Source: Halogeometricum limi
GTDB taxonomy: Archaea; Halobacteriota; Halobacteria; Halobacteriales; Haloferacaceae
Direction: 5' to 3'
Assembly (NCBI RefSeq): GCF_900115785.1
Contig: NZ_FOYS01000001.1
Location: forward strand, 124,001 to 188,000
DNA length: 64,000 bases
The notes below the pieces were generated by a model. The model did not search any database. It was not told where the DNA came from and was given only the letters and a program-made list of their open reading frames with translations. Position numbers and translations under genes: made by a program. This document shows positions 752 to 20,038 of this stretch, piece after piece (within the stretch, counting starts at the first letter, position 1; the number at the start of each line of letters is the position of its first letter).

Positions 752-2494
752 TCAGTTGTCGAACCGCGCTTGGACGAACGGTTGCGCGTTCTCGATGTCG
801 CCGAGACGCGAGTCCGACAGGAGAACGGCTTCCGTCTCGTCGATAGGGACCGAGAGCGAGATTTCTTTCGTGCGGCCGTACCGGCCCTTCGAGACGACGA
901 CGGCGTTGACGATACCGAGCATGTCGAGTTCGGAGATGAGGTCCGTCACGCGCCGTTGAGTGAGGATGTCGGCGTCGATCTCCTCGCAGAGGCGTTTGTA
1001 GATGTTGAACACCTCGCCGGTGTTGATGTTGCGGACGCCGTTCTTCTCCAAGAGGATGATGGCGAAGAGGACGATTTTCGACTGCGTCGGGAGGGTGCGG
1101 ACGACTTCGACGACCCGGTCTAACTCTATCTTGTCCTGCGCCTGCCGGACGTGCGCTTCCTCGACGGTGTCGGCCTGCCCGCGTTCGGCGAGTTCGCCCG
1201 CCGTCCTGAGGAGGTCGAGTGCGCGCCGGGCGTCTCCGTGCTCCTGCGCGGCGAAGGCGGCGCAGAGCGGAATCACGTCGTCGGTGAGTGCGCCGCCTTT
1301 GAACGCGACGTCCGCGCGGTGTTGGAGGATGTCGCGCAACTGGTTCGCGTCGTACGGCGGGAACACGATCTCCTCCTCACCGAGACTCGACTTCACGCGC
1401 GGGTCGAGAAAGTCGGTGAACTTCAGGTCGTTCGAGATACCCATGATGGAGATGCGCGAGTTGCTCAGCTCCGAGTTCATCCGTGAGAGGTTGTACAGCG
1501 TGTCGTCGCCGGATTTCTCGACGAGTTTGTCTATCTCGTCGAGCATGATGACGACGACGCGTTCGTTGTAGTCGACGGCGTCGAAGAAGGTCGAATAGAC
1601 GCGGTCGGTCGGCCACCCCGTCATCGGTACCGTCTCCATCTCCTCTCTGTCCGTCTCCAACTGCTCGATTCGTTCCTCGACGGCCTCGACGCTGTCGAAG
1701 GAGGTGTCTTCTAACGGGGCCGGGGACTCTCCGACGCGCGTTCGGAGGTCTTCGAGTCGGTCGAGTCGGTTCTCGATGATATCGAAGTTCTTCTCGATGA
1801 ACTTGTTCGCGAGTTGCGCGAGGACGCGGTACTGGGTGTCCGTCACCTCGCAGTTGATGTACTCGACCTCGCAGGGGACGTCGTACTTCTGGGACGTCGA
1901 CTCCAGTTCCTGACTGACGAACTTCGCACTCGCGGTCTTTCCTGTCCCCGTCTTCCCGTAGATGAGGATGTTCGAGGGCGTCTCCCCGCGGAGTGCGGAG
2001 ACGAGAATCGTCGCCATCTGGTTTATCTGCTCGGTCCGGTGAGGCAGTTCGTGAGGCGTGTACGAGGGGCGCAGGACCTCCTTGTTCTCGAAGATGGGTT
2101 CGCCGGAGAGTAGGTCGTCGAACAGTCCGCGACTGTCGCCGTCGTCGTCTTCGAGGACGACTTCGTCCAAACTCACGTCCGTCGACGCGTCGTCTTCGAC
2201 GCCGCCGTCTTCGGCGTCGCTCGGGCCGATGCTCTCGCGGATATCGATGTCCTCGGCGGTGACCGCTTCGCCGCTCTCGGCCCTCTCTGACGCGTCGGAC
2301 GCGTCGGAAGCGTCGGACGCGTCAGAGGTGTCGGACGAACTGGACGGGTCGGACGAGTCGGACGCGTCGGCGGTGTCTGTCTCCGGCCGGTCCGTTTCGC
2401 GGCTCGCCTCCGTGGACTGCGGTGAGTCGGTCGCCGAGTCTTCGGGTGGCCGCGACTCCTCGTCCCGGTCTGATGTCGGTGTGTCGTCGTCCAT
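752..2494 (-). CDS. orc1: Orc1/Cdc6 replication initiator
   Basis: This AAA+ protein binds origin recognition boxes and starts chromosome replication. Residues 1-120 form an acidic, probably disordered arm with a Ser-Asp-Ala repeat (about 45-69). Walker A GKTGTGKT is at 180-187, Walker B VIMLDEIDKL at about 315-324, and sensor-1-like SIMGISNDLKF follows. The C-terminal 150 residues fit the winged-helix domain (QRRVTDLISELDMLGIV). ATG at 2494 is chosen because GAGGGGGT precedes it; an in-frame start 26 codons upstream would run through the promoter. The gene points away from the 1.2 kb origin region. An ORB lies over the predicted transcription start, which suggests self-regulation. The 580-residue length is longer than most Orc1 proteins because of the arm. 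Confidence 0.95.
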   Translation of the reverse strand: MDDDTPTSDRDEESRPPEDSATDSPQSTEASRETDRPETDTADASDSSDPSSSSDTSDASDASDASDASERAESGEAVTAEDIDIRESIGPSDAEDGGVEDDASTDVSLDEVVLEDDDGDSRGLFDDLLSGEPIFENKEVLRPSYTPHELPHRTEQINQMATILVSALRGETPSNILIYGKTGTGKTASAKFVSQELESTSQKYDVPCEVEYINCEVTDTQYRVLAQLANKFIEKNFDIIENRLDRLEDLRTRVGESPAPLEDTSFDSVEAVEERIEQLETDREEMETVPMTGWPTDRVYSTFFDAVDYNERVVVIMLDEIDKLVEKSGDDTLYNLSRMNSELSNSRISIMGISNDLKFTDFLDPRVKSSLGEEEIVFPPYDANQLRDILQHRADVAFKGGALTDDVIPLCAAFAAQEHGDARRALDLLRTAGELAERGQADTVEEAHVRQAQDKIELDRVVEVVRTLPTQSKIVLFAIILLEKNGVRNINTGEVFNIYKRLCEEIDADILTQRRVTDLISELDMLGIVNAVVVSKGRYGRTKEISLSVPIDETEAVLLSDSRLGDIENAQPFVQARFDN

Positions 2495-2500
2495 GTGTGT

Positions 2501-2525
2501 GACCCCCTCGTTTCGACTGGAAACC
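2501..2525 (-). promoter_or_regulatory. ORB in the orc1 promoter/leader
   Basis: On the minus strand this reads TTTCCAGTCGAAACGAGGGG, an ORB variant that ends seven bases before the orc1 ATG. A TATA-like CGTTTAC at about 2532-2538 would put the transcript start inside this box. Bound Orc1 could therefore block its own transcription; this is inference. Confidence 0.7.
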
Positions 2526-2830
2526 GCTCCGTAAACGGCCCACAACGGGCGTGACGTCGTGTTTGAGTGCAACGTAACACCACGAAACCGAGACGGGAGC
2601 GTCCAGATGATGCAGACGAACCAGACGAACAGGTGCTACAAAAAACTTGTCTATCGGTCGCACGGTCGGTGTCGAGCATTCCTCGAATGTGCCGCTGCCG
2701 GCCCACAGTGGTCGGTGAGTAATCGATACGGGTGCTCCCGACGTGCGAGAGTGAGAACAGCCTCTGCTGTCGTGTTCGAATCGGATTTAGACGTTCAATA
2801 GGCGACAGAATAGGCGGTCGACCGCGAGGG

Positions 2831-2856
2831 TTTTCGACCGGAAGCAGGGGGTGGTG
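2831..2856 (+). repeat. Degenerate ORB-like site
   Basis: TTTTCGACCGGAAGCAGGGG followed by GTGGTG resembles the plus-strand ORB, with one base missing in the centre. It lies in the origin region between orc1 and the left perfect ORB. Half sites are also visible at 2882-2897 (minus), 2961-2985 (plus) and 3017-3038 (plus). Confidence 0.5.
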
Positions 2857-2986
2857 CCGAAAAATCGGAAGAGAGGGGGAGCGTTTCGGGTCTGGACGCT
2901 CACCAGAGAGAGTTCGTAGCCGCCGTCTTCGGACGAGTGAGTCGATTCGAGAGTGTATGGACACGAAACGGTGGAGGGGGTCACCT

Positions 2987-3013
2987 CCCCCACCCCTTCG
3001 TTTCGGGTGGAAC
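2987..3013 (-). repeat. Origin recognition box, left arm
   Basis: Read on the minus strand it begins GTTCCACCCGAAACGAAGGG and continues with a run of G. It matches the right arm (3188-3214) at all 27 positions in inverted orientation. The G-rich end points away from the AT-rich centre, as in other archaeal ORB pairs. Confidence 0.9.
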
Positions 3014-3054
3014 GCCAATCGAAGGGGGTGGGGGTCTCGCGGGGACTTCTTCGA

Positions 3055-3150
3055 ACAGGTGGTTTTATTACTTAACCTGTTCAACCAAACCCGTAGTAGA
3101 GAAAAGAGTATAATTACACTGCTTCACCTATCTAGGATAAGACCGTTCTA
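3055..3150. other. AT-rich probable duplex unwinding element
   Basis: This is the most AT-rich stretch of the origin region, with TTTTATTACTTAACC and GTATAATTACAC inside a GC-rich chromosome. It lies between the two perfect ORB arms. The role in melting is inferred from position and composition. Confidence 0.75.
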
Positions 3151-3187
3151 CCGGTCATCCGAGCAGACGGGGGGACCCGTTCGCCCG

Positions 3188-3214
3188 GTTCCACCCGAAA
3201 CGAAGGGGTGGGGG
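3188..3214 (+). repeat. Origin recognition box, right arm
   Basis: This is a perfect inverted copy of 2987-3013, with 174 bases between the two arms. The conserved core CCGAAACGAAGGGGT is followed by a G string. It is the expected binding site for the Orc1 winged helix and AAA+ domains. Confidence 0.9.
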
Positions 3215-3610
3215 TGTTGTCGCCTTCGACCCATCGCTTCGCTTCGAACCGGATAGACGGGAGGTGCCTGGTCCGCGAACACACAGAAGGCGTTTCGAAA
3301 CCGCCGGTTCGTCCTCGACCACTCATCGTCTGTTCGACACGAAACCAGGGTGATTTGAGAGTGCCCTGTGTTTCACGTCCACAGTTTCCAGAACAGAGAA
3401 CCCCCTCAGTCGCCGTCGCGGATGCACCACCGTATGGGTCGTCTTAACTCGCATCCGTCTGCGCGTGCGAGAGAAGCAGTCACGGCGGGTGTCGGTTCTC
3501 CTCTCTTGGTCGCCGTCTGCTCGATTCCGCCGAGGGCGAGACTACGCGAGCGTTAATCTGGTGTCTGTCGAGTAAAGCAGCGGTAAATCTGACCGGCGTC
3601 TGACGTAGTG

Positions 3611-3639
3611 CTTAAGTGACCTCAGAAATGTGGTACCCT
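3611..3639 (+). promoter_or_regulatory. Promoter of oapABC
   Basis: A TATA-like CTTAAG at 3611-3616 would start transcription near 3639. This leaves a leader of about 45 bases with a GGGAGGA ribosome binding site (3673-3679) just before the oapA ATG. A leader with a Shine-Dalgarno sequence is unusual here, because most genes in the window look leaderless. Confidence 0.55.
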
Positions 3640-3683
3640 CATACGCCCCTCCACGACCAAATCGGGAGGTGCGGGAGGATAGG

Positions 3684-4325
3684 ATGGGACTGCTTACAGA
3701 ACTTAGAGACAGCATCTCACGGGTCGCCGACCGCCTGTTTACGGACTCGGAGCCGAGACGAATCGGCATCTACGGTCCACCGAACGCCGGAAAGACGACC
3801 CTCGCAAACCGTATCGCCCGTGATTGGACCGGTGACGCCATCGGCCCCGAGAGCCACATTCCCCACGAGACGCGCCGCGCGCGCAGAAAGGAGAACGTGG
3901 AGATAGAACGCAACGGCAAGAAAGTCACCATCGACATCGTCGACACGCCGGGTGTGACGACGAAAGTCGACTACAAAGAGTTCCTCGACCACGATATGCA
4001 GAAGGACGACGCCGTCCGTCGGTCTCGGGAGGCCACCGAGGGCGTCGCCGAAGCGATGCACTGGCTTCGCGAGGACGTCGAGGGTGTCATCTACGTGCTC
4101 GACAGCACCGAAGACCCGTTCACGCAGGTCAACACGATGCTCATCGGTATCATCGAGAGTCAGGACCTGCCCGTGCTCATCTTCGCGAACAAGACCGACT
4201 TGGAGGACTCGAACGTCCAGCGTATCGCCAACGCCTTCCCGCAGCACGAGACGGTGCCACTCTCTGCGCTCGAAGGGAACAACATGGACGAAGTGTACGA
4301 CAAGATCGCGGAGTACTTTGGGTGA
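3684..4325 (+). CDS. oapA: Origin-associated Era-like GTPase OapA
   Basis: This is a small P-loop GTPase of the TRAFAC class, 213 residues. G1 GPPNAGKT is at 31-38, G3 DTPGVTT at about 90-96, G4 NKTD at about 173-176, and the C-terminus is short (DKIAEYFG). ATG 3684 is chosen for the GGGAGGAT ribosome site just upstream; the in-frame GTG at 3630 has none. Its stop codon overlaps the GTG of the next gene in GTGA, so translation is probably coupled. Genes for a GTPase, a DUF2073 protein and a zinc-ribbon protein beside orc1 and oriC are known in haloarchaea as oapABC. Their effect on replication is known from the family, while the biochemical role remains unclear. Confidence 0.85.
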   Translation: MGLLTELRDSISRVADRLFTDSEPRRIGIYGPPNAGKTTLANRIARDWTGDAIGPESHIPHETRRARRKENVEIERNGKKVTIDIVDTPGVTTKVDYKEFLDHDMQKDDAVRRSREATEGVAEAMHWLREDVEGVIYVLDSTEDPFTQVNTMLIGIIESQDLPVLIFANKTDLEDSNVQRIANAFPQHETVPLSALEGNNMDEVYDKIAEYFG

Positions 4326-4711
4326 GCACAGTGCCTGAAGTCACACCCGGCGACGACGGGGTACAGATCGACCTCATCAGCGGTGCCCGAATGGAGGGCC
4401 TCGCGAGCATGGAGAAAATTCGGCTCATCCTCGACGGCGTCCGCGACGGTAACATCGTCATCTTAGAGGAGGGACTCTCGCCGGACGAAGAGTCGAAGCT
4501 CATCGAGGTGACGATGACCGAGATAAGCCCCGACGAGTTCAACGGCATCGAGATAGAGACCTACCCGCAGTCGAAGGGCGGGCAGGGGTTCCTCGGCCGA
4601 CTGATGGGCAAAGAGACGACGAAGAAGCTCACGGTCATCGGCCCGGCAAACCAGATTCAGACGCTCCACAAAGACGAGAACCTCATCAGCGCGCTCGTCT
4701 CGCGGAAGTAG
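4322..4711 (+). CDS. oapB: Origin-associated protein OapB (DUF2073)
   Basis: This 129-residue acidic protein has no signal peptide or membrane segment. The N-terminal half (VQIDLISGARMEGL, then KIRLILDGVRDGNIVILEEG) and the central EEGLSPDEESKLIEVTM fit the DUF2073 family found beside OapA. A basic, Gly-rich stretch (KGGQGFLGRLMGKETTKKL) precedes a strand-rich C-terminus. Translation starts at GTG 4322, overlapping the oapA stop; GTG 4331 is an alternative. It is the second gene of the oapABC group on the replication side of the origin. Function is known only by association with origin control and RNA binding proposed for relatives, which cannot be judged from sequence here. Confidence 0.85.
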   Translation: MSTVPEVTPGDDGVQIDLISGARMEGLASMEKIRLILDGVRDGNIVILEEGLSPDEESKLIEVTMTEISPDEFNGIEIETYPQSKGGQGFLGRLMGKETTKKLTVIGPANQIQTLHKDENLISALVSRK

Positions 4712-4813: not shown

Positions 4814-5938
4814 ATGCCCCACCAATGCACGAACTGCGGGAGGGTGTTCGCCGACGGCTCCAAAGAGATGCTGTCGGGGTGCCCCAACTGCGGCGGCAAC
4901 AAGTTCCAGTTCGACCCTTCGGGGTCCGGGAGCGACGGCGCCGCCCAGACGACGAACCGCCGACAGGCGTCGTCGTCCGACACCACTCCGTCGGGGCGCG
5001 CCGCCGACCACAGTCGAGAGGCGACCGGACGCGAGTCCGCGTCGACCGGAAACGACACCGCACGGACGGAATCCGCGTCTTCGACCGACGACGACGCCGC
5101 GGGTTCGACGACGTGGCGACGCGCCGCGTCGCGCGCGGCGGAAGCCGACGACGGCGGACGACCCGACACACGCAGTCACGACGGACAGCCTCGCTCGGAC
5201 GACCAGACGAACGACGTCGACTCCGCCGCCCGTCGCGGGCAGACGCTCCGCGAGTGGGCGAACTCCCGCGGCTTCGCGAGCGAAGTCGAAGACGCCAACG
5301 ACGAGACGACGCTCCGGGAGAACCGTCGACGGACTGGGGATGCCCAGCGACGGCGCTCGGAGCGACCGGACGAGCAGTCGCCGCCGGGGACGACGGAGTC
5401 GTCTTCCTCGGCGTCGACGTCGCCGAACTCGCCCCCGTCGAACTCGTCTCCACCGGAATCGACGCCGTCGGATTCGTCTCCGTCCGAAACTGGACCGTCG
5501 ACGTCCCCATCGGAATCGACGCCACCGGCATCGACGCCGCCGTCTGACTCCGCCGCGTCACCGTCACCGTCCCCGGAGGCTTCGTCTGCGGACCCCGCCG
5601 ACCCGTCGGTGTTCGGCGACGACACGGAAGACGACGCACAGGCGAGTGCGCGCTCTGAGGTCGTCTCCCCGGACGAGATTCGAGCGGCGAGCGAACGACC
5701 CCCGGACGCCGAGGGGACGGTCATCGAACCACAGAGCGACGAGCGCCCGGACCTCGACGACCTGCGCGAGGAACTGAACGACCAGTTCGAGAGCATCAAA
5801 ATCGTCGCACCCGGCGAGTACGAACTCAACCTGATGGAACTGTACGACCGCCCCGAGTACATTATCTCGCTTCGCGAGGACGGCCGCTACGTCATCGAAG
5901 TCCCCGACACGTGGGGAAGCCACGACGACGACCGCTGA
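4814..5938 (+). CDS. oapC: Origin-associated zinc-ribbon protein OapC
   Basis: This 374-residue protein starts with a four-Cys zinc ribbon (CTNC at 5-8, CPNC at 23-26). About 250 residues of Ser, Asp, Pro and Thr follow, with no predicted fold (roughly 40-290). A conserved C-terminal domain closes it (about 305-374: ESIKIVAPGEYELNLMEL, then YIISLREDGRYVIEVP). The layout of ribbon, disordered linker and terminal domain matches the OapC/ArvC family of haloarchaeal origin loci. ATG 4814 lies 102 bases after oapB and is probably in the same transcript. The linker region has open frames in several phases because of its codon bias; only this frame keeps the two end domains. The stop codon lies in a 20-bp tandem duplication. 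Confidence 0.85.
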   Translation: MPHQCTNCGRVFADGSKEMLSGCPNCGGNKFQFDPSGSGSDGAAQTTNRRQASSSDTTPSGRAADHSREATGRESASTGNDTARTESASSTDDDAAGSTTWRRAASRAAEADDGGRPDTRSHDGQPRSDDQTNDVDSAARRGQTLREWANSRGFASEVEDANDETTLRENRRRTGDAQRRRSERPDEQSPPGTTESSSSASTSPNSPPSNSSPPESTPSDSSPSETGPSTSPSESTPPASTPPSDSAASPSPSPEASSADPADPSVFGDDTEDDAQASARSEVVSPDEIRAASERPPDAEGTVIEPQSDERPDLDDLREELNDQFESIKIVAPGEYELNLMELYDRPEYIISLREDGRYVIEVPDTWGSHDDDR

Positions 5939-6048: not shown

Positions 6049-6075
6049 GCCGAACCCCTTCGTTTCCGGTCGAAC
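6049..6075 (-). repeat. Dispersed ORB-like motif 1
   Basis: On the minus strand this reads GTTCGACCGGAAACGAAGGG followed by GTTCGG. It shares the GAAACGAAGGGG core with the origin boxes but lies 2.8 kb from the right ORB, between oapC and the MATE gene. Confidence 0.65.
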
Positions 6076-7656: not shown

Positions 7657-7684
7657 CCGAACCCCTTCGCTTCCACTCGAACTC
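7657..7684 (-). repeat. Dispersed ORB-like motif 2
   Basis: The minus strand reads GTTCGAGTGGAAGCGAAGGG followed by GTTCGG, one base off the common GAAACGAAGGGG core. It lies 42 bases after the MATE stop. Confidence 0.6.
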
Positions 7685-10831: not shown

Positions 10832-10858
10832 ACCGAACCCCTTCGTTTCGAGTGGAGA
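10832..10858 (-). repeat. Dispersed ORB-like motif 3
   Basis: The minus strand reads TCTCCACTCGAAACGAAGGG and continues GTTCGG. It is identical over about 25 bases to the motif at 20013 and shares the core of the origin boxes. It sits between two convergent stop codons. Confidence 0.7.
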
Positions 10859-20012: not shown

Positions 20013-20038
20013 TCTCCACTCGAAACGAAGGGGTTCGT
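20013..20038 (+). repeat. Dispersed ORB-like motif 4
   Basis: TCTCCACTCGAAACGAAGGG is followed by GTTCG. It is identical over about 25 bases to the motif at 10832, in the opposite orientation, and lies next to the end of the gene at 20048. Confidence 0.7.

Follow-up and report, generated by a model that had tools for sequence, protein, structure and literature searches.

Satellite ORB cores around the oriC1 of a haloarchaeal chromosome and an inverted ORB pair within the coding sequence of DP1

The origin region proper of the window (the whole 64-kb stretch of Halogeometricum limi DNA that was analysed, located on contig C8) spans positions 2495-3683 and, as claimed in an earlier note on this DNA, is flanked by the divergent genes cdc6/orc1 and oapA. 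The former (752-2494, minus strand) encodes a 580-residue initiator of the oriC1 type, which scores over the cut-offs of both NF001625 (650.7 bits) and TIGR02928 and also matches Cdc6_C. On the opposite side the origin is adjoined by oapA (3684-4325, plus strand), encoding an Era-like GTPase (MMR_HSR1/small_GTP), followed by oapB (4322-4711, plus strand; Pfam OapB, 1.3e-43) and oapC (4814-5938, plus strand; Pfam OapC, 1.1e-28). The range of 2495-3640 given in the earlier note located the origin correctly, but its end should be placed at 3683, where it meets the start of oapA. Between the two genes, two ORBs with an extended G-string, the left at 2987-3013 (minus strand) and the right at 3188-3214 (plus strand), form a perfect inverted repeat of 27 bp, complementary at 27/27 positions and at exactly the coordinates reported before. 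In the window no exact inverted repeat with arms within 500 bp of each other is longer, and the corresponding maxima in 20 first-order Markov control windows were 13-17 bp. The AT-rich core described between the arms was likewise recovered, with an AT content of 62% over the 100 bp at 3051-3150 versus 34% across the window. The weaker boxes of the same description are an exact match to the ORB core (TCCAGTCGAAACGAGGGGG) at 2503-2521 (minus strand), located at the 5' end of cdc6 and 9 bp upstream of its ATG, and a weak ORB-like box with 2 mismatches at 3334-3352 (plus strand, C8:127334).

In published oriC1 origins an AT-rich core is enclosed by two inverted ORBs, each with a halophile-specific G-string at its end; cdc6 and a gene for a GTP-binding protein are neighbours, and genes for signal peptidase and polymerase are found in the vicinity (PMC3936714, PMC4010727, PMC3528665). 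The same organization was observed here. Both arms carry the halophile-specific G-string, oriented outward, and match the consensus of 68 oriC1 loci, and the conserved gene order of PolD small subunit, signal peptidase, cdc6, origin and GTP-binding protein is present, albeit with a TIGR02228 match for the signal peptidase that falls short of the cut-off. A skew change near the origin, as anticipated in the earlier note, was also visible: the cumulative GC skew of C8, a single draft contig of 939,581 bp, peaks at position 128,626, at a distance of 1.5 kb from oriC1. The purine and AT disparity curves of the contig peak at 104 and 146 kb, with oriC1 at 127.1 kb. Gene order, inverted ORBs, AT-rich core and skew maximum all fit published oriC1 and support the origin call, and judged by these features the region 2495-3683 is oriC1, the ancestral main-chromosome origin of haloarchaea, and a textbook case of it. 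The oriC1-cdc6A origin of Haloarcula hispanica, the orc7 origin of Halobacterium NRC-1 and the oriC1 of Haloferax share with it the flanking genes for Cdc6 and the GTP-binding protein, the two inverted ORBs with extended G-string, the AT-rich core and the signal peptidase and polymerase genes nearby. It differs from known haloarchaeal oriC1 in the G-rich internal inverted repeat, an enhancer element, of which a regular-expression check at this oriC1 found the left half only (GGGGGTGGGGG, 3024-3034, plus strand) and no right half; such a left-half-only repeat is known for Halobacterium NRC-1 and Halogeometricum among others (PMC3936714).

The perfect identity of the arms had been proposed to reflect strong selection or recent conversion. 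Arms were compared across 68 oriC1 loci having both, the window's locus included. The spacing of the arms varies between 183 and 429 bp, and every one of these loci keeps both arms near one consensus. Identity at 27/27 positions was found in 5 of the 68, where 1.8 would be expected with arms shuffled between genomes, a weak excess (p 0.03, kinship ignored). Recent gene conversion is consequently not needed as an explanation, each arm simply matching the family consensus. Because all 68 loci keep their arms near this consensus, five of them with complete identity, perfect identity is here read as the outcome of a single consensus to which both sites are held. Concerted evolution of the arms, in a weak form, is possible, although not required.

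ORB cores were also observed outside the origin. Searching the 3.6-Mb genome with the core pattern TCCANNNGAAACNNRGGGG returned 8 exact sites, all of them within C8:104,252-144,033; an earlier pattern, GTTCCAGTGGAAACA, had zero matches in this genome. With one mismatch allowed, the true pattern gave 15 sites and the reversed-pattern control 1. Nine other haloarchaeal genomes show the same clustering of exact sites around oriC1, and in them the reversed exact pattern had 0 matches. In the ten genomes combined, 36 of 53 exact satellites fall within 25 kb of oriC1 (0.67 expected) and 47 of 53 within 135 kb (3.6 expected). When the sites in DP1 and in the gap between cdc6 and oapA are left out, approximately 16 of 29 satellites remain within 25 kb by hand count (approximately 0.4 expected). 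Across 80 oriC1 loci, 393 one-mismatch sites were counted, of which 210 fall outside the 1.1-kb interval preceding oapA; the reversed pattern gave 0, and in its exact form it had 0 matches in 829 kb of oriC1 loci. With reversed-pattern controls at 0, or at 1 with one mismatch, chance is rejected as the source of the sites.

Within the window the satellites comprise the core at 2503, a core with 1 mismatch at 6055-6073 (minus strand) in the gap after oapC, an exact core at 10838-10856 (minus strand) between two apparently convergent genes, and an exact core at 20015-20033 (plus strand) upstream of a UvrB-like gene; a weak satellite ORB-like box with 2 mismatches is located at 7662-7680 (minus strand, C8:131662). 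Beyond the window, sites are found at C8:104252, 104298 and 123388. The satellites at 6055, 10838, 20015 and C8:104252/104298 appear intergenic, as judged from ORFs only. The satellites carry the ORB recognition core without the extended G-string of oriC1. The location of the core at 2503-2521, at the start of cdc6, suggests an autoregulatory site.

An inverted ORB pair was found in the coding sequence of DP1, the small subunit of PolD, with its G-strings directed outward as in oriC1. The pair is situated in a hypervariable linker that joins the N-terminal domain to the catalytic part, always in the same reading frame of DP1, and its arms are spaced by exactly 57 bp start to start, corresponding to a 38-bp gap. 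When the gap was freed to 24-52 bp, 38 bp was observed in 41 of 45 exact pairs, 35 bp in three and 50 bp in one, all of which keep the frame. With up to 3 mismatches the pair is present in 223 of 392 haloarchaeal genomes, representing 58 of 86 genera (reversed control 0), and in 0 of 242 genomes of the phylum outside class Halobacteria. In this genome DP1 (NF003116, 985 bits) carries the pair at C8:123388-123463 (L099 9388-9463), 0.6 kb to the left of the window, with one arm exact and 3 mismatches in the other. Lineages without the pair mostly keep the downstream ORB alone (11 of 13). Since one arm is degraded in this genome, and Halorubrum and some others keep a single ORB, the pair is not essential everywhere. 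Among 42 genomes in which a long contig carries the pair, its distance from oapA was 3.8-9.3 kb in 37 and 27, 75, 155 and 196 kb in four; in G046 it was 2.9 Mb, and as the two lie at opposite ends of the single contig of this genome they are probably adjacent on a circle. DP1 is far from oriC1 also in Haladaptatus (~19 kb) and two Halorarius (~85 and ~130 kb). As the pair stays intact or nearly so with DP1 about 20-196 kb from oriC1, its function would be either gene-linked or exerted across tens of kb.

That the conserved unit is instead a peptide motif of DP1 (PSVSTG...PxETxG) contacting a replisome partner is highly improbable. The peptide does recur, and in one frame, but the rare codons that the ORB requires are fixed at silent sites: GTT in 55/55 (background 6.0%), ACT in 42/42 (4.7%), GGA in 49/49 (7.3%) and CCA in 59/59 (4.4%). 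These codon sets were selected by DNA pattern; in a repeat of the test on sites selected by the peptide P-x-E-x-x-G, from loci fetched through OapA, CCA was found in 30 of 31. Moreover, deviations from the pattern were more common at first and second codon positions (5.8%) than at third positions (1.6%; p 8e-6, kinship ignored), whereas protein constraint would produce the opposite pattern. At the peptide level the two arms are unlike each other; at the DNA level they are an inverted repeat of the ORB. The peptide reading was rejected on the codon and deviation tests, and the hairpin reading on covariation. Under the hairpin reading, the likeness to an ORB would be secondary: the pair would form a hairpin in mRNA or DNA, acting for instance as an attenuator, with its inverted arms pairing across a 38-nt loop. 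However, at five variable positions the arms matched 25, 24, 31, 28 and 28 times, versus 28.3, 24.8, 24.1, 27.5 and 28.6 by chance; matching at chance level means that no hairpin is being kept. A single arm is retained in Halorubrum and others, and the letters that are conserved match the ORB of oriC1; we give this proposal hardly any credence. With rare codons fixed, deviations avoiding silent positions and arms without covariation, the conserved entity at the DP1 pair is, on tests that ignore shared ancestry, a DNA motif rather than a peptide or a hairpin.

A DNA motif of this kind could nevertheless have other roles. The inverted ORBs with outward G-strings resemble oriC1, and Haloferax mediterranei is known to have dormant origins (PMC4595724), but it is very unlikely that the pair is a second, dormant origin: only 38 bp separate the arms, this gap is GC-rich in most genomes by inspection, with no AT-rich core found in it, and the GGGGTGGGGG string that comes after the core in oriC1 is missing. 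The pair thus lacks the extended G-string, whose alteration abolished autonomous replication of oriC1 in Haloarcula hispanica (PMC3936714). Only oriC1 might matter, the satellites including the DP1 pair being neutral leftovers of an origin duplication or of ancestral linkage. The proximity of the satellites to oriC1, with DP1 usually 4-6 kb away, and the loss of one arm in some lineages would be in line with this; conversely, the silent third positions of the pair are nearly invariant amid the hypervariable linker, its spacing is fixed and it persists where DP1 has moved, which makes neutral persistence unlikely. Rather similar weight falls on the proposal that the satellites act like bacterial parS sites, labelling the surroundings of the origin for segregation or for folding of the chromosome, with Orc1 as the marking protein. 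Single sites clustered around an origin resemble the distribution of parS, and three satellites of this genome lie between apparently convergent genes, but Orc1 is not known to be linked to segregation in haloarchaea, and we consider this quite unlikely.

The reading preferred here, which we hold to be probable on balance, is that oriC1 is accompanied by satellite ORBs and the DP1 pair as non-firing initiator sites, which would buffer the initiator and/or feed back on gene expression. Each archaeal Orc monomer occupies a single ORB in a defined polarity, its AAA+ domain touching the G-string (PMC7776575). By analogy with the family, Orc1/Cdc6 from the adjacent gene would bind the two inverted ORBs of oriC1 with its AAA+ part on the G-strings, whereupon the AT-rich core would open and MCM would be loaded. 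The satellites and the DP1 pair would bind the same initiator; as the core is present and the extended G-string absent, they are expected to hold it without firing. In this way they may serve as a buffer for free initiator in the vicinity of the origin, a role proposed for oriC2D at oriC2, and/or exert feedback on the expression of cdc6 and DP1, and the DP1 pair could act as a sink or as a transcriptional block. It is more tentatively suggested, as an idea that we find conceivable without counting on it, that an initiator-binding regulatory element in the codons of DP1, together with the satellites, couples initiator level, origin firing and the supply of replicative polymerase.

The closest known counterpart is found in Haloarcula hispanica, where the ORB-rich region oriC2D restrains oriC2, probably by titration (PMC3936714). 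In both cases multiple ORBs that match the box of the origin's initiator lie outside the origin. However, oriC2D belongs to oriC2 and groups its 11 ORBs in a single cluster within 722 bp of intergenic DNA, whereas here single sites and a pair embedded in DP1 are spread around oriC1 over distances of tens of kb. In bacteria, datA and dispersed DnaA boxes are non-firing initiator boxes outside the origin. The initiator is a different one, and the most conserved site of the present system overlaps codons of the replicative polymerase at a fixed spacing. A literature search of limited coverage returned no account of ORBs within the gene for PolD or of satellites around oriC1, and an earlier description is possible; as far as the literature was searched, the satellites and the DP1 pair are undescribed, the origin itself being ordinary. 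Together they suggest an undescribed layer of replication control. For the control of initiation on multi-origin, polyploid archaeal chromosomes, one titrating ORB region, that of oriC2, has been reported, in one species. A class-wide ORB pair in a polymerase gene and clustered satellites would provide concrete, silently recodable sites for initiator control and, if the proposal is true, a clear example of selection for an origin-type protein-binding site within coding sequence.

Further orc1/cdc6 genes of this genome are located at C2:228457, C4:195276, C7:299, C7:146971 and C8:301169. As no oriC1-type ORB core was found beside them, they probably use other boxes. In seven loci, mostly of Halorubrum, oapA is without ORB arms within 5 kb (L029, L036, L051, L061, L073, L074 and L081), and oapA and oriC1 may have come apart there. 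In the Halorubrum loci L052, L053, L064, L065, L067, L072 and L079, DP1 keeps the downstream ORB only. Relatives have sites near cdc6 that resemble the exact core at 2503-2521. The two exact cores at C8:104252-104316 (L098 10252-10316) are on the same strand, 46 bp apart, and sit between Cgi121-like and histidine-kinase-like genes that are apparently convergent (names read from translations). At its N terminus the Cdc6 protein carries a long extension that is acidic and rich in Ser and Asp; 9-bp repeats at 2000-2480 of the window encode it (DASDASDAS).
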